Below, one piece after another: positions 11,678-17,230 of a stretch of DNA of 64,000 nucleotides (positions are counted from its first letter, which is position 1; each line of letters opens with the position of its first letter). Source of the stretch: Chitinophaga sp. MM2321 (GTDB taxonomy: Bacteria > Bacteroidota > Bacteroidia > Chitinophagales > Chitinophagaceae). The notes under the pieces are model-generated. The model worked only from the letters and a program-made list of their open reading frames with translations. It was not told where the DNA came from and did no database searches. Position numbers and translations under genes: made by a program. The stretch covers positions 5,084,001 through 5,148,000 of the forward strand of contig NZ_OZ035533.1 of NCBI RefSeq assembly GCF_964033635.1. The letters are read 5' to 3'.

Positions 11678-11983
11678 CTATGCTTTAATTTCAACTTCTA
11701 CCCCAGAAGGTAAATCCAGTTTACTGAGTGCATCTACCGTCCTGGAAGAGGACGTGTAAATATCCAGCAAACGCTTGTGAGTACACAACTGGAACTGCTC
11801 GCGCGCTTTCTTATTTACGTGCGGAGAACGCAGTACCGTAAAAATTTTCTTCTCTGTAGGTAAAGGTATCGGACCTGTTACCACGGCGCCCGTGTTACGC
11901 ACGGTTTTGACGATCTTCTCAGCAGACTTGTCTACCAGGTTATGATCGTAGGACTTCAGCTTGATTCTTATTCTCTGAGACAT
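11678..11983 (-). CDS. rpsJ: 30S ribosomal protein S10 (uS10)
   Basis: Small-subunit head protein; also the NusE partner of NusB in transcription antitermination. The 101 residues begin [20 protein letters not shown] and include the uS10 signature [20 protein letters not shown] followed by [14 protein letters not shown] two codons upstream is in frame, but ATG at 11983 matches the family start and is preferred. In most Bacteroidota rpsJ directly follows fusA; here about 3.1 kb of other genes separates them, and rpsJ has its own promoter. Confidence 0.98.
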
Positions 11984-12283: not shown

Positions 12284-12328
12284 AAAAAAAGGGTTGTTCC
12301 CGGCAAAACCCGGAACAACCCCCTTTTT
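12284..12328. terminator. Bidirectional terminator after small-peptide gene 1
   Basis: GGGTTGTTCC and GGAACAACCC (12291-12300 and 12312-12321) form a 10-bp stem with extra GG/CC pairs, flanked by A7 on one side and T5 on the other. On the minus strand the stem is followed by T7, ending the peptide-1 transcript. Confidence 0.85.
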
Positions 12329-12366
12329 GAATAATTAAAACGATACCGGCATAACCGGCTCCCCTC

Positions 12367-12453
12367 TTACAGAGGTAAGCCGCCACCGATTCCGCCTAAT
12401 AATGATTTTACTAATCCTAAGACTAGTGCCAGTAATTGGTTGAGTAAATCCAT
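12367..12453 (-). CDS. Small amphipathic peptide 1 (28 aa), member of four-gene cluster
   Basis: ATG at 12453 to TAA at 12367. The peptide begins MDLLNQLLA, ends SLLGGIGGGLPL and is nearly all Leu, Val, Gly and Ala, with polar residues at 2, 5, 6, 16 and 17. That spacing of three to four puts them on one face of an alpha helix. The first nine residues match peptide 2 except Asp for Asn at position 2, and SLLGG is shared, so the two are paralogues; the reading frame is supported by that match. It has no signal peptidase site. The gene has its own conserved leader element 23 nt upstream, paired direct repeats further up and its own terminator. Function unknown; a secreted or membrane-active peptide or a type I toxin are the obvious options. 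Confidence 0.7.
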   Translation of the reverse strand: MDLLNQLLALVLGLVKSLLGGIGGGLPL

Positions 12454-12476
12454 TTTAAATAGGTTTTCATGTAATG

Positions 12477-12507
12477 CCTACTCTGTTCCTGGTTTTCGGC
12501 GATCCCA
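12477..12507 (-). promoter_or_regulatory. Conserved leader element, copy 1
   Basis: On the minus strand TGGGATCGCCGAAAACC, 6 nt, AGAGTAGG, ending 23 nt before the peptide-1 ATG. Four copies occur in 1.1 kb, one per peptide gene. The two blocks are nearly invariant while the gap between them varies, which fits an RNA leader element or a two-part protein site better than a rigid promoter core. Confidence 0.75.
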
Positions 12508-12569
12508 GCGGGTAATGAATATGGTTAACCCCAGGATTAAATTTAAAGGCAATACCTGGATTCCAGTTC

Positions 12570-12613
12570 GTTCATTTTGTTCATTCTCAATGCTTTTGAT
12601 CAGATTGTTCATT
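12570..12613 (-). promoter_or_regulatory. Paired TGAAC direct repeats upstream of peptide 1
   Basis: On the plus strand heptamers GTTCATT (12570), GTTCATT (12579), GATCAGA (12598) and GTTCATT (12607) stand at pitches 9, 19 and 9. The same geometry occurs upstream of peptide 4. On the transcribed strand they read AATGAAC. Tandem direct repeats are the usual target of LytTR-type regulators; the assignment is only a suggestion. Confidence 0.55.
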
Positions 12614-12722
12614 GTAACACCCTGGCGGATCAGAGAAGCGGGCGCGTGCATTTATCATCCCGATGAAGCCCCGATCTGCCGGAAGCAACCATTTATCAAT
12701 GAGAAGGGGATTTTGCGGCATG

Positions 12723-12750
12723 AAAAAGCTCCGGACACACTGCCCGGAGC
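12723..12750 (-). terminator. Terminator after small-peptide gene 2
   Basis: On the minus strand GCTCCGG, a 9-nt loop, CCGGAGC, then T5. Perfect 7-bp GC-rich stem, about 70 nt after the peptide-2 stop. Confidence 0.85.
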
Positions 12751-12818
12751 CATAGAGATTGTAAGGGAGATAGCACGCTTAAAAAGGCTGAATCGTCCCC
12801 TTACGGATGAAGAGCTGA

Positions 12819-12887
12819 TTACAGTCCTCCCAGGAGCGATTGCAGCAGGGCAACAAGCGTTGCCAGCAGTTGGTTGAGTAAATTCAT
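12819..12887 (-). CDS. Small amphipathic peptide 2 (22 aa)
   Basis: ATG at 12887 to TAA at 12819. The peptide begins MNLLNQLLATLVALL and ends QSLLGGL. Polar residues at 2, 5, 6, 10, 16 and 17 fall on one helical face; there is no charge apart from the termini. Clearly paralogous to peptide 1 in the first nine residues and in SLLGG. The conserved leader element ends 24 nt upstream, paired repeats stand at 13002-13046, and a strong terminator follows. Length, clustering and amphipathicity recall phenol-soluble modulins (20-25 residue leaderless peptides in staphylococci), an analogy and not a demonstrated homology. Confidence 0.72.
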   Translation of the reverse strand: MNLLNQLLATLVALLQSLLGGL

Positions 12888-12911
12888 AAGATGGTTTTAC
12901 TACTGGTTATA

Positions 12912-12945
12912 CCTACTCTATTAAATTTGGTTTTCGGCAATCCCA
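12912..12945 (-). promoter_or_regulatory. Conserved leader element, copy 2
   Basis: TGGGATTGCCGAAAACC, 9 nt (AAATTTAAT), AGAGTAGG on the minus strand, ending 24 nt before the peptide-2 ATG. The upstream flank TATATATAAGCTTTG is AT-rich and could contain the promoter -7 region. Confidence 0.75.
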
Positions 12946-13001
12946 AAGCTTATATATACAAGCATCCGCTAAAAGTAAAGGCTATTCAGAAAAATCCGTT
13001 C

Positions 13002-13046
13002 GTTCATTTTATTCAATCAGGATTACTACTATCCTGTGCGTTCATT
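13002..13046 (-). promoter_or_regulatory. Paired TGAAC direct repeats upstream of peptide 2
   Basis: Plus-strand GTTCATT (13002), ATTCAAT (13011) and GTTCATT (13040) are seen, with a weak fourth copy near 13031. Pitches are 9, then 29 between the second and last clear copies, one base more than in the peptide-1 and peptide-4 arrays. Confidence 0.5.
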
Positions 13047-13121
13047 CCGCTGAAGGAAGGGGTTTCAGCGATTGCTGCTGCACGAAAAAACACCGGCAGC
13101 GGATGCATTTTCAGGTATGCA

Positions 13122-13150
13122 CAAAAAAACTCCGGTATCACTACCGGAGC
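13122..13150 (-). terminator. Terminator after small-peptide gene 3
   Basis: On the minus strand CTCCGGTA, loop GTGA, TACCGGAG, then T7: an 8-bp perfect stem with an ideal U-tract, about 25 nt after the peptide-3 stop. Confidence 0.9.
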
Positions 13151-13172
13151 AAAACAACCCGAAATAACTGGT

Positions 13173-13247
13173 TTATATCCCCCCGAGGGCAGACATCAGT
13201 AATGCCAGTAAACCTTTCAAAAAGGTATTTAATGCGTCAGTGATCAT
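13173..13247 (-). CDS. Small amphipathic peptide 3 (24 aa)
   Basis: ATG at 13247 to TAA at 13173. The peptide begins MITDALNTFLKGLLALL and ends MSALGGI. Asp4, Asn7, Thr8 and Lys11 mark a polar helical face opposite a Leu-rich face; the S-x-LGG end matches peptides 1 and 2 in style. The leader element ends 22 nt upstream. Unlike the other three units, no TGAAC repeats precede it. Instead a 10-bp inverted repeat lies between the leader element and the terminator of peptide 4, suggesting different control. Confidence 0.68.
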   Translation of the reverse strand: MITDALNTFLKGLLALLMSALGGI

Positions 13248-13269
13248 AATATGCTGTTTAAAAAATCTG

Positions 13270-13301
13270 CCTACTCTTTTATATGGTTTTCGACAATCCC
13301 A
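13270..13301 (-). promoter_or_regulatory. Conserved leader element, copy 3
   Basis: TGGGATTGTCGAAAACC, 7 nt (ATATAAA), AGAGTAGG on the minus strand, ending 22 nt before the peptide-3 ATG. One substitution from copy 2 in the long block; the short block is identical. Confidence 0.75.
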
Positions 13302-13334
13302 TCAGCTGAATGTGGCTACTATCAATGGTAGAAT

Positions 13335-13386
13335 ATGCTGTAATTCCGTGAGGATAACAAGTATGTCATCAACCGTATTACAGCAT
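13335..13386. promoter_or_regulatory. Inverted repeat upstream of peptide 3
   Basis: ATGCTGTAAT (13335-13344) and ATTACAGCAT (13377-13386) are perfect inverses 32 nt apart. They take the place occupied by TGAAC repeats in the other units. They could be two half-sites for a dimeric or looping regulator. Confidence 0.4.
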
Positions 13387-13398
13387 TATTCCATGCAT

Positions 13399-13425
13399 AA
13401 AAACGCCGGTCCTGCACCGGTGTTC
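13399..13425 (-). terminator. Terminator after small-peptide gene 4
   Basis: On the minus strand ACACCGGT, loop GCAGG, ACCGGCGT with one mismatch, then T-rich. It separates units 4 and 3, so each peptide gene appears monocistronic. Confidence 0.8.
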
Positions 13426-13451
13426 CTATAAGGTTACTGTCAGCCAGGCAC

Positions 13452-13514
13452 TTACAGCGCGCCGGTTACCGTGTTCAGAAACTTAATAATTGCCAGGAGA
13501 ATAGTGTCTAACAT
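13452..13514 (-). CDS. Small amphipathic peptide 4 (20 aa)
   Basis: ATG at 13514 to TAA at 13452, 20 residues, beginning MLDTILLAIIKFL and ending NTVTGAL. Asp3, Thr4, Lys11, Asn14 and Thr15 lie on one helical face; the rest is Leu, Ile, Phe and Val. It is the most divergent of the four but carries the same leader element 25 nt upstream, the best-formed set of four TGAAC repeats, and its own terminator. Those shared non-coding parts are the main reason for calling such a short frame a gene. Confidence 0.65.
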   Translation of the reverse strand: MLDTILLAIIKFLNTVTGAL

Positions 13515-13539
13515 AAGGGAGTGATTGATGGATGTGAGG

Positions 13540-13570
13540 CCTACTCTTTTATTGGTTTTCAGCAACCCCA
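13540..13570 (-). promoter_or_regulatory. Conserved leader element, copy 4
   Basis: TGGGGTTGCTGAAAACC, 6 nt (AATAAA), AGAGTAGG on the minus strand, ending 25 nt before the peptide-4 ATG. Two substitutions from copy 2 in the long block. Confidence 0.75.
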
Positions 13571-13628
13571 TTGACTAAGCCAGTTTAGTCATGCCTCTAA
13601 AATAAATGCTTCCGTTTAAAAAATGTCT

Positions 13629-13672
13629 GTTCAATTGGTTCATTCTCACACTCCCTGTTCATTTTGTTCAGC
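13629..13672 (-). promoter_or_regulatory. Paired TGAAC direct repeats upstream of peptide 4
   Basis: Plus-strand heptamers GTTCAAT (13629), GTTCATT (13638), GTTCATT (13657) and GTTCAGC (13666), pitches 9, 19 and 9, identical in spacing to the peptide-1 array. The array ends about 58 nt upstream of the leader element. Confidence 0.6.
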
Positions 13673-13780: not shown

Positions 13781-14395
13781 TTATTTACCTCTTTCTTCTT
13801 TATAAATCTGTTTTGCTTTGGCAGATGGCAGATAGATCTGGAAACCTATACCCAGACTCAACTGACTGGCAGTCGTAGAATTACCTCCACCAACGGTAAG
13901 GTCATATTTCAACAATCCTTCCAAACCAATATTAGGGGTAATAAAATAAGAAATACCAGGCCCGATCCCAATATTAAAACCGTTGGTAGAAGCCGCACTG
14001 GCAGGGTTTTTACCAGCAAATCCTACATTGCCTTCTGCAAAGAAGCGGACTCTCTTGGAAAATTCCAGTTTCCTTACATTTTTATCTTCCACAAAATAAC
14101 GGGCAAAACCACCAATGCCATAATTGGTGCTGGATGTTTTTACATCCGTAGTCTTATCCTTTGTGGTAGCCAATCCGAAATCAACATACGCACCAATAGC
14201 CAGCCCGTCTTTAATAAACCAGCCCACCTTCGGGGAAAGGTTTAAATTGAAAGCATTCCCTTCCTTCTGGAAAATGAAGTTAATATTTGTGAGATCGGCG
14301 CCCACCATAATATTACCTTTCTGAATCTGTGCCTTAACGGTTGACCCCAATAATAATGCTACTGTAACGAGGGTTAATAGACGAGTTTTTTTCAT
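13781..14395 (-). CDS. Small outer-membrane beta-barrel protein
   Basis: 204 residues from ATG 14395 (an in-frame upstream extension exists but the signal peptide begins here). A Sec signal MKKTRLLTLVTVALLLGSTV-KAQ is followed by alternating strands (GNIMVGADLTNINFIF, VGWFIKDGLAIGAYVDFGLA, GIGGFARYF, GIGPGISYFI, QLSLGIGFQIYL), the pattern of an eight-stranded OmpX/OmpW-like barrel in the outer membrane. Glycine and aromatic residues alternate as usual. It sits upstream of the small-peptide genes on the same strand but is separated from them by a terminator. Role unknown. Confidence 0.8.
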   Translation of the reverse strand: MKKTRLLTLVTVALLLGSTVKAQIQKGNIMVGADLTNINFIFQKEGNAFNLNLSPKVGWFIKDGLAIGAYVDFGLATTKDKTTDVKTSSTNYGIGGFARYFVEDKNVRKLEFSKRVRFFAEGNVGFAGKNPASAASTNGFNIGIGPGISYFITPNIGLEGLLKYDLTVGGGNSTTASQLSLGIGFQIYLPSAKAKQIYKEERGK

Positions 14396-14886
14396 AGTGT
14401 GATTTTTAGTTTTAACAATTAAACATGCTGAATGAATACTAATAAGCAAGGCAAAACGGCCATGACAATTACTCTTTGCGGCTATGGCAGCATTTTCGCT
14501 ACCTGGTAATGAACTGATTTAATAGAGGCAGGGGGATAATGGGTAGTCTTCGAAACTTCAAACAATCACAAACATTTTTAAACAGCAAACCTGCTGATGA
14601 AGCAAAACTACTGAAAATGAACGTAATAAGTATTCATCTCTCTAAAAAAAATATATAAAAAATCATACTGTACAAGCGTAGTCTTTCCGTTTTATAACCC
14701 TATAACATTCACAACTTCCATGTTGTTGTATAAAAAAAGGTGCTGACCCATTATTTTTTCCGGAACACTTTTCCCAGGCATATTAATTCCGCTTTATCCG
14801 GCCCTTGCATTGCTTGTTTTAAGCCAGGCAACACCTCATCCATCCGATGGCTGATACAGGGATTATGCGCCCCTTACAGGGTAAAA
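14396..14886. other. Gene-poor spacer upstream of the barrel-protein gene
   Basis: About 490 bases, AT-rich, without a convincing coding frame. Its proximal part must hold the promoter of the barrel-protein gene, but I could not place TTTG/TAnnTTTG boxes with correct spacing. A short ACAAC..GTTGT inverted repeat (about 14711-14728) is the only other structure seen. No copy of the small-peptide leader element occurs here. Confidence 0.5.
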
Positions 14887-15085: not shown

Positions 15086-17230
15086 TTAAGCGTTTACTTT
15101 GCCTTTCACTTTAGCTACCACTTCTTCCGCCACGCTGGTTGGAGCCGGAGCATAGTGGGAGAATTCCATGATAGAGCTTGCACGACCGGACGACAGTGAA
15201 CGCAGCTGTGTTACATAACCGAACATTTCGCTCAGTGGCACTTTAGCTTTGATTACCTGTACACCGTTTTTGGAGTCCATACCTTCCAGCATACCACGAC
15301 GACGGTTCAGATCACCTGTCACATCACCCATGTACTGGTCTGGTGTTAATACTTCCACTTTCATGATAGGCTCCAGCAATACTGGTTTAGCTTTGCGGGC
15401 TGCTTCACGGAAAGCCGATTTGGCACACAATTCAAATGACATCGCATCAGAATCCACCTGGTGGAAAGATCCGTCGAACAGACGTACTCTCAGGTTCACC
15501 AGCGGGAAGTTTGCCAGTACACCCTGGCTGAGCGACTGTTCAAATCCTTTCTGTACCGCAGGGATGAATTCTTTAGGGATAGATCCACCAAAGATATCAT
15601 TTACGAACTGGAATGATTTGCCTTCGTTCTCTTTCAGCCATTCAGCATCGGCAGGTCCGAGTTCTATCTGGATGTCAGCGAATTTACCACGACCACCGGT
15701 TTGTTTCTTAAATACCTCACGGTGTTCAACTTTAGCGGTCAGGGCTTCCTTGTAAGCAACTTGCGGAGCTCCCTGGTTAACTTCTACCTTAAACTCGCGA
15801 CGCATACGGTCAACGATGATTTCCAGGTGAAGTTCACCCATACCACTCAGGATGGTTTGGCCGGTTTCTTCGTCAGTTTTTGCTTTCAGGGTAGGATCTT
15901 CTTCTACCAGTTTAGCGATAGCCATACCCATTTTATCAACGTCTGCCTGCGTTTTAGGCTCAATGGCGATGTGGATAACGGGTTCCGGGAAGGTCATGAT
16001 TTCCAGTACGATCGGATGCTTCTCGTCGCACAGGGTATCACCTGTTTTGATATCTTTAAAACCAACAGCAGCACCGATATCACCGGCTTCGATGAATTCG
16101 AGTGGGTTCTGCTTGTTAGCGTGCATCTGCATAATACGGCTGATACGCTCGTTTTTACCGGTACGGGTGTTCAGTACGTAAGAACCAGCATCCAGGTGAC
16201 CAGAGTAAGCCCGGAAGAACGCCAGACGACCTACGAAAGGATCGGTCATGATTTTGAAGGCCAGTGCAGCGAATGGTTCCTTTGCATCTGGTCTGCGTAA
16301 AACTTCCTCACCGCTGTCGGGGTTGGTACCTTTTACGGCTTCGATGTCCATTGGAGAAGGCAGGTAACGGCAAACCGCATCCAGCATTTTCTGAACACCT
16401 TTATTTTTGAAGGAAGAACCGCACATCATCGGAATGATAGCGATATCGATGGTAGCCTTACGGATAGCTTCGTGGATTTCCGCTTCAGAGATCGTATTTG
16501 GATCGTCGAAGAATTTCTCCATCAGTTTATCATCATATTCAGCTACTGCTTCAACCAGGTTAGCTCTCCATTCTTCTGCCTCAGCTCTCATGTCGGCAGG
16601 AATTTCAATTTCCTGGTAAGTAGCGCCTTTACCTTCTTCGTCCCAGATGATTCCTTTCATGGTGATCAGATCTACCACGCCTTTGAAAGACTCTTCAGCG
16701 CCGATAGGCAGTACTAAAGGAACGGGGTTTGCACCCAGCATTTCTTTTACCTGCTTAACAACGTTCAGGAAGTCGGCACCGGAACGGTCCATTTTATTTA
16801 CGAAACCGATACGTGGTACACGGTAGCGGTTAGCCTGACGCCAAACGGTTTCAGACTGTGGTTCAACACCGGATACGGCGCAAAACAATGCCACCAGACC
16901 GTCCAGCACACGGAGAGAACGCTCTACCTCTACGGTAAAGTCCACGTGACCTGGCGTATCAATGATGTTGAATTTATATTGCTTGGTATCAGGTTGTACT
17001 TTACCCTGCAGGGTTGGGAAATTCCAAAAACAAGTGGTAGCAGCAGATGTGATGGTAATACCTCTTTCCTGCTCCTGTGCCATCCAGTCCATGGTAGCAG
17101 CACCCTCGTGCACCTCACCAATCTTGTGGGATTTACCTGTATAATACAGGATACGCTCTGTGGTAGTGGTTTTACCCGCATCAATGTGCGCCGCAATACC
17201 AAAGTTCCTTTGAAATCTTAAGTCTGCCAT
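15086..17230 (-). CDS. fusA: Elongation factor G
   Basis: GTPase that drives tRNA-mRNA translocation and, with RRF, ribosome recycling. The 714 residues begin [20 protein letters not shown], giving the P-loop [12 protein letters not shown], switch [22 protein letters not shown], and G4 NKMDRSGAD. Domain IV shows [10 protein letters not shown], and the C-terminus [12 protein letters not shown] with RRRGMLEGM and [19 protein letters not shown]. All EF-G landmarks are present, so this is a full factor and not a tetracycline-protection paralogue. Normally it stands between rpsG and rpsJ; here both neighbours have been displaced by inserted genes. Confidence 0.98.

Follow-up and report, generated by a model that had tools for sequence, protein, structure and literature searches.

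Four micro-open reading frames (micro-ORFs) on the minus strand of Chitinophaga sp. MM2321, lying between the fusA and rpsJ genes, encode predicted peptides of 20 to 28 residues that, on comparative evidence, belong to a real peptide family, conserved beside a core ribosomal gene, that has no match in the family libraries searched. Coordinates given here are positions in the window, the 64,000-nucleotide (nt) stretch that was analyzed. The array consists of micropeptide A (12367..12453, minus strand; 28 amino acids, MDLLNQLLALVLGLVKSLLGGIGGGLPL), micropeptide B (12819..12887, minus strand; 22 amino acids, MNLLNQLLATLVALLQSLLGGL), micropeptide C (13173..13247, minus strand; 24 amino acids, MITDALNTFLKGLLALLMSALGGI), and micropeptide D (13452..13514, minus strand; 20 amino acids, MLDTILLAIIKFLNTVTGAL). 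An earlier note on this stretch had proposed that it holds four paralogous genes for amphipathic micropeptides, every one of them behind a separate leader, and this core claim has held up: the genes are conserved among relatives and are under purifying selection. The frames of A, B, and C lie where that note had placed them, and A and B do have the motifs MxLLNQLLA and SLLGG in common. For D, the frame opens mechanically at 13571, within its leader (39 amino acids), whereas the start at 13514 favored in the earlier note matches the spacing of the family and is kept in relatives. Peptides of 20 to 28 residues fall under the usual length limit of gene finders, and so a whole class of conserved peptides may have been overlooked, even though the genus is a widespread soil inhabitant and the locus a core ribosomal one.

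Conservation and amphipathicity of the micropeptides

We compared 79 stretches upstream of rpsJ in Chitinophaga, including the window's own. The rpsJ gene was mapped in 78 of the 79 genomes, and the stretches are about 3.56 kb long in 76 cases and shorter in three (3343 bases in G063, 3000 in G071, and 2500 in G073). In G071, rpsJ was not found and distances are approximate; its array, beta-barrel, and fusA genes lie on one contig. A unit was defined as a leader element followed within 14 to 39 nt by an ATG frame of 15 to 60 codons, and units were assigned by a score of at least 36 against seven reference peptides, with two low-scoring frames (G024 and G030) excluded. This search for leader plus frame, which the earlier note had called for, gave 173 units upstream of rpsJ in 58 of the 79 genomes, with one to six units per genome and three or more in 43 genomes. 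The start codon lies 18 to 32 nt past the leader (median, 25; 170 units). In 55 of the 58 genomes, every unit falls between the beta-barrel gene and rpsJ, and in the other three (G019, G076, and G077) the beta-barrel gene is outside the compared stretch. A pattern for the shared N terminus independently returned 68 matches in 43 of the 79 genomes and none in a reversed control; wherever rpsJ was mapped (42 genomes, the 43rd being G071), these matches lie upstream of it at distances of no more than about 2.1 kb.

The units fall into groups A (57 genes), B (59), C (15), and D, the last with subtypes D1 (17) and D2 (12), together with a fifth type, E, that was seen in eight of the genomes (E1, 4; E2, 9). 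Group labels denote the best score, and at least three upstream units labeled A (in G055, G015, and G071) resemble D. B is duplicated in some species. The approximate ratio of nonsynonymous to synonymous change (pN/pS) is lowest in C (0.245; 15 distinct DNA sequences), B (0.25; 58 sequences), and A (0.26; 50 sequences) and higher in E2 (0.38), E1 (0.44), D2 (0.447), and D1 (0.455), and third codon positions hold 47 to 58% of the changes. The micro-ORF frames are almost certainly translated and selected.

The predicted helical character of the peptides is conserved as well. Over residues 1 to 18 of the four window peptides, the helical hydrophobic moment is 0.40 to 0.44, compared to means of 0.17 to 0.19 for shuffled sequences, and of 5,000 composition-preserving shuffles only small fractions reached the observed value (A, 0.0016; B, 0.0018; C, 0.0006; D, 0.0106). 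The amphipathicity described in the earlier note therefore exceeds shuffled expectation for each of the four peptides, and it is conserved across groups A to D, with mean z scores of 2.92 for A, 2.93 for B, 2.83 for C, 2.65 for D1, and 2.15 for D2, and with a best moment angle of 95 to 100 degrees, like that of an alpha-helix. The net charge is 0 in all four window peptides and ranges from −3 to +2 among A relatives and from −1 to +1 among B and C relatives. No signal peptide is apparent by eye. The four window peptides matched no Pfam family at an E value of ≤1 and no NCBIfam family at an E value of ≤10, a search in which very short queries limit sensitivity, and the A/B profile found no PDB match at E values up to 10.

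Type E differs from the other groups in its weaker amphipathicity (mean z scores of 1.34 and 1.72). Its 13 units were found in the stretches upstream of rpsJ of G018, G061, G019, G077, G013, G064, G031, and G076 and encode peptides of 27 to 47 amino acids with an amphipathic start and a tail rich in Cys, His, and Asp that has a metal-binding look (e.g., MSFEEFIRLLLRLLACHCHHRDDDDDDDRGGCKPRG). Two type E peptides that were scanned had no Pfam or NCBIfam match, and a 43-residue E peptide had one match in a database of 5.8 billion proteins, a 41-residue protein identical to the E peptide of G077.

Could the RNA units alone be functional, with the micro-ORFs serving as regulatory leader frames or arising as by-products? 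Nine element matches have no qualifying frame in the unit scan. Four of them (G028, G057, G026, and G073) are chance-like, three lying in beta-barrel-like sequence, and the other five are array leaders (G032, G067, G039, G064, and G030) in which the frame is broken, missing, or very short, so that the element does persist there without an intact frame, as an RNA-only function would allow. The 173 complete frames nevertheless show amino acid conservation, free synonymous change, and conserved amphipathicity, and we consider an RNA-only explanation extremely unlikely. The earlier note had named the loss of frames alongside a persisting element as the outcome that would count against the peptides; that outcome occurs at those five leaders, but overall the frames are kept in relatives and have changed mostly at synonymous sites.

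A wider distribution of the peptide family was considered and rejected. A profile built from 18 A and B peptides matched 4 of 294 family genomes, all of them Chitinophaga (1 of 101 genera), and the A/B profile results listed cover six members of the genus, two of which (G022 and G056) are also without an array in the scan upstream of rpsJ. Among named GTDB genomes, the leader-plus-frame pattern was found in 24 stretches, of which 22 are titled Chitinophaga, with C. pinensis and C. filiformis among the species represented; the remaining two come from [Flexibacter] sp. ATCC 35208 and a metagenome bin labeled Flavihumibacter. A mobile origin was considered and rejected, as the array stretch matched none of 50,697 phage records and none of 72,556 plasmid records.

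In the direction of transcription from fusA (15086-17230), which bounds the array stretch on its far side, to rpsJ (start at 11980, minus strand), upstream of which the array sits, the order of genes is the outer membrane beta-barrel gene, D, C, B, and A. The beta-barrel gene (13781-14398, minus strand) scores 28.3 bits against PF13505, just under the cutoff of 28.7.

The DUF805b leader and the boundaries of the units

All four micro-ORFs are preceded by DUF805b (Rfam RF02914; gathering cutoff, 35.6 bits), which Rfam classes as cis-regulatory. The leaders lie on the minus strand at 13538..13572 for D (36.1 bits), 13268..13303 for C (37.6 bits), 12910..12947 for B (35.9 bits), and 12475..12509 for A (35.4 bits, 0.2 below the cutoff), and the distance from the last G of the element to the start codon is 25, 22, 24, and 23 nt, respectively. 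The earlier note was thus right that a leader element stands before each gene, three of them above the cutoff and that of A 0.2 bits short, but the element is one already known, reportedly first described by Weinberg and colleagues in 2017. Our literature search found no paper on the DUF805b RNA; most subscription papers lay outside that search, which does not imply absence from print. DUF805b is widespread: of 195 family genomes, 151 have it, and it was seen in 91 of 101 genera and in 77 of the 79 genus genomes. At A, an extra ATG 6 nt past the leader opens a short out-of-frame ORF that overlaps the A start (MKTYLKWIYSTNYWH; window 12475-12453); among the 57 A units, an upstream ATG gives an out-of-frame overlap in 18 and an in-frame extension in 4, and 29 have no such ATG.

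Base pairing was assessed on 209 distinct elements, comprising those of the array and of 61 other loci with duplicates removed, by shuffles that keep relatedness in. The stem and the AGAGUAGG pseudoknot arm of the leaders covary. The third pseudoknot pair (the base before CC with that after GG) is standard in 208 of the 209, compared to a shuffled mean of 173, and in the P1 stem, pairs 0, 2, and 3 exceed all 10,000 shuffles and pair 1 is invariant; pairs 4 and 5 have no covariation support in this set.

In relatives, the leader also occurs between micro-ORFs: 8 of 15 C leaders start 20 to 39 nt past the preceding micro-ORF, and four B leaders lie only 4 to 8 nt past it. Because leaders in such positions are not easily explained by a role confined to the 5′ end or embedded in a promoter, they point to an action on translation or the fate of the RNA, and DUF805b likely acts at one of these levels.

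Beyond the array, we examined 62 DUF805b-led loci, one of which is an array unit, and scanned eight of the led proteins with Pfam. Four of these matched no Pfam family, and the products identified were a PixA inclusion body protein, a lantibiotic dehydratase, a rhodopsin, and a ricin-lectin-like protein (below cutoff). By eye, the led genes also include small proteins with signal-like starts and peptides resembling GG-type precursors. Genes of the bacteriorhodopsin family and for lantibiotic dehydratase were each seen twice behind DUF805b, one each identified by Pfam and the others by likeness. In Chitinophaga and in other genera, paralogous genes for small proteins stand in tandem, with a DUF805b leader before every copy, and the duplication of a leader together with a small gene looks like a habit of this element. 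In another genus, a lone DUF805b-led gene encodes a 35-amino-acid Leu/Gly-rich peptide (MINVNLDLSKLIATLFGSLSGLLGGLDLGGGLGGL), the sole complete frame of fewer than 60 residues among 29 loci of other genera.

The picture of four independent expression units, each closed by a strong terminator, stands only in part. A scan found clear terminator-like hairpins on the minus strand after B (12727..12751, 11 bp) and C (13129..13150, 9 bp), but the one after D (13406..13420) is short, with a stem of 5 bp, and downstream of A it reported solely a weak hairpin (12345-12359); a terminator-like hairpin with a T-run after A (12284..12322) was read from the sequence. The whole scan gave 5 hairpins, versus 3.3 ± 1.4 in shuffles, and a loose scan without a shuffled control placed a hairpin with a T-run in 119 of the 173 units of relatives. 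As for independence, an upstream repeat (see below) precedes A, B, and D, but it precedes none of the 15 C units, whose leaders follow another micro-ORF closely in the eight cases given above. We find no support for complete independence of all four.

The opposite strand bears on whether the units could be type I toxin-antitoxin modules, an idea raised in the earlier note, in which membrane-toxic peptides would be restrained by antisense RNA. The size and hydrophobicity of the peptides, the structured leader, and the presence of several copies all suit such modules. However, a search of the 173 units for antisense promoters, which covered the form TTG-N17-23-TANNTTTG, found none, the array occupies a fixed chromosomal locus without a phage or plasmid match, and its leader is common to many clearly nontoxin genes. 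The type I toxin explanation gained no support from these observations and is very unlikely. Long plus-strand frames do overlap some units (e.g., 12440-12877). Conserved antisense ORFs were considered and, for groups A to C, rejected: 31 of the 59 units in B lack a stop-free antisense stretch across the whole micro-ORF, as do 21 of the 57 in A and 4 of the 15 in C. For D this test is uninformative, with 1 of 17 D1 and 0 of 12 D2 units lacking such a stretch.

An upstream direct repeat and a proposed function

Two features of the array are new here: a TGAAY direct repeat upstream of most of its units, and the placement of DUF805b between micro-ORFs in relatives. The repeat, TGAAY-N4/5-TGAAY, precedes 121 of the 173 array units, mostly about 70 nt upstream of the leader (B, 46 of 59; A, 44 of 57; D, 29 of 29; E1, 2 of 4), whereas the distal 1,200 nt of these regions contain it at a background rate of 0.016 per 140 nt. 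It was found before none of 60 other DUF805b genes with sufficient upstream sequence (one of 61 was dropped), and the 64-kb window contains five occurrences, four of them at the array; the repeat is therefore a mark of the array rather than of genes with a DUF805b leader in general. In the window, the predicted activator site, TGAAY-N4-TGAAY on the minus strand, lies at 12570..12583 before A, and the repeat scan placed others at 13002..13015 before B and, as an inner and an outer pair, at 13629..13642 and 13657..13670 before D.

A gap-free alignment of 91 units with a 4-nt spacer and the repeat 55 to 85 nt before the leader has TTA at +37 to +39 from the repeat start (T in 68, T in 89, and A in 90) and TT at +42/+43 (in 90 and 89 of the 91), which defines a −7-like box at a fixed distance. 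Read against this profile, the boxes in the window are TTTAAATTTA for A (12538..12547), TTTACTTTTAG for B (12969..12979), and TTTATTTTAG for D (13597..13606), all on the minus strand. Sigma-70-type promoters were rejected, with 9 found versus 6.0 ± 2.8 in shuffles. The consensus of LytTR regulators resembles the reverse complement of the TGAAY repeat and has a spacing of 21 to 22 nt; the commonest TGAAY spacings are 9 and 28 nt, and LytTR-type binding was set aside, as a lead only.

The repeat also occurs near other genes. At up to one mismatch to ATGAAYRAAATGAAYG, this genome has 14 sites, against 2 in the control. Two of the 14, 263 nt apart, precede a gene whose 3212-residue product carries a sorting domain of the type IX secretion system (T9SS), type B; genes for PorP/SprF and for an OmpA-domain protein come next (L222:5256-15421; G000:C1:6311754 onwards). 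A stricter form, AATGAAYAAAATGAAYRGA, has 72 sites in 51 of the 79 genus genomes and none in a reversed control. Among 30 of these 72 sites whose neighbors we examined, eight adjoin a homologue of the giant protein's N terminus (six at 44 to 52% identity) and six a homologue of a KGG stress protein (by tblastn). We infer from these neighbors a shared activator for the array, the giant-protein genes, and the KGG genes.

Our tentative reading, to which we give somewhat less than even chances, is that the array makes activator-driven, likely exported, surfactant-like peptides that act like the phenol-soluble modulins (PSMs) of staphylococci without a detectable sequence relationship. An activator would bind the TGAAY repeat and turn the array on together with the genes for the type IX-sorted giant protein and the KGG stress proteins; DUF805b would then set the translation or stability of each message, inside operons as well. 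Released with no need of a signal peptide, the peptides would arrive outside the cell or on its surface and, as amphipathic helices, act on membranes or surfaces, helping spreading, biofilm formation, or competition in a PSM-like manner. Because the array would be coupled to the type IX-sorted giant protein, surface behavior is the most economical guess. The analogy to PSMs drawn in the earlier note remains plausible in light of the repeat common to the giant-protein and stress-protein genes, but it finds no echo in Pfam or NCBIfam.

Several observations weigh against a surfactant-like role or against parts of the evidence leading to it. No exporter was identified among the ORFs of the window, which is as far as that search went, and PSM export is not known to have a precedent among Gram-negative bacteria. 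The net charge of D relatives ranges from −1 to +2. The pN/pS ratios are approximate, as pS values of 0.54 to 0.74 in groups A to D are near saturation, though their direction is plain. No unit was found in the fetched stretch upstream of rpsJ in 21 of the 79 genomes, and five array leaders are without an intact frame, so the micropeptides must be dispensable. The repeat is absent from all 15 C and all 9 E2 units, from 13 of the 57 units in A, from 13 of the 59 in B, and from 2 of 4 E1 units. Several of the 14 sites in this genome are start codons within genes, and since MNKMN-type starts mimic the repeat, some one-mismatch matches are due to chance. Finally, two of the eight giant-protein matches are weak (30 to 31% identity), and 16 of the 30 sites have neither a giant-protein nor a KGG homologue by BLAST; these 16 include one array unit, two GG-type short frames recognized by eye, and three long frames with a start similar by eye and no significant match, the others being unassigned.

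Two other functions would use the same helices differently. The peptides could be an antimicrobial set of several components, similar to leaderless bacteriocins and released against competitors, as might be suggested by the lantibiotic dehydratase and the short GG-type precursors (by eye) among DUF805b-led genes and by short frames of the GG type that were seen by eye close to two of the 30 repeat sites; cooperative pore formers would also fit paralogous sets. With window peptides of net charge 0 and hence not cationic (D relatives reach +2), and with no immunity or transporter gene recognized among the window ORFs between fusA and rpsJ, this role seems rather unlikely. Alternatively, the peptides could remain inside the producer, with a regulatory or structural role as helices at the inner membrane of that cell in stationary phase or under stress, SpoVM being the model for an amphipathic helix that acts on the producer's membrane. 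The lack of an apparent signal peptide, the similar repeat before KGG stress-protein genes, and the conserved amino acids would suit such a helix, whereas genomes with as many as six units and the duplications of B suggest dosage or a mixture rather than a single structural partner, and we regard it as similarly unlikely.

A bolder form of the surfactant-like, PSM-like reading would see in the array a modulin system of Chitinophaga's own, composed of a peptide quartet, an activator shared with the giant and stress proteins, and portable DUF805b translational switches, effective at the 5′ end as well as between genes. We consider this form unlikely. Within the papers covered, which exclude most subscription papers, a literature search on gliding, swarming, and biosurfactants in Chitinophaga returned only a biocontrol paper, and searches for small-protein ribosome profiling in Chitinophaga and for amphipathic small ORFs together with riboswitches in Bacteroidetes returned none.

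Comparison with known systems

By its covariance model, the leader of the array is the DUF805b RNA, and its stem and pseudoknot covary. The array departs from the other occurrences of this RNA in that the leader also lies 4 to 39 nt past a preceding micro-ORF and stands before micropeptides. With its tiny reporters, natural intercistronic copies, and natural covariants, the array would be a compact test bed for an orphan RNA.

Type I toxins of the Ldr, Ibs, TisB, and Fst types are tiny hydrophobic peptides, and they are similar to the array in peptide size and in their structured 5′ regions. The array differs from them in that its peptides are amphipathic by moment, its locus is fixed, it has no antisense promoter of the tested form, and its leader also serves nontoxin genes. 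Leaderless bacteriocins are likewise small, signal-less, and amphipathic, and several are often found together; unlike these, the window array has no immunity or transport gene recognized beside it, and its peptides are near neutral.

The PSMs and delta-toxin of staphylococci offer the closest likeness, being short amphipathic peptides with several paralogues; size, charge, and the absence of a signal sequence enter the comparison as well. The array peptides have the predicted short amphipathic helix without a signal peptide that characterizes PSMs, judged by the moment analysis and, for the signal peptide, by eye. Pfam and NCBIfam hold curated PSM and delta-lysin profiles, and the window peptides match none of them (E values of ≤1 and ≤10, respectively); since this profile test was negative, we do not claim membership in the PSM family. 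The array further differs in belonging to another phylum and in its apparent regulation by a pseudoknot leader and a TGAAY repeat. Our literature search, which left most subscription papers outside, found nothing on PSMs in Chitinophaga and, among the papers listed, nothing on such amphipathic peptides there. In one study, PSMs are described as amphipathic small peptides that affect colony spreading in Staphylococcus aureus (PMC5056675). The array thereby raises a testable question: does a Gram-negative phylum have gene-encoded, surfactant-like peptides that parallel the staphylococcal modulins?

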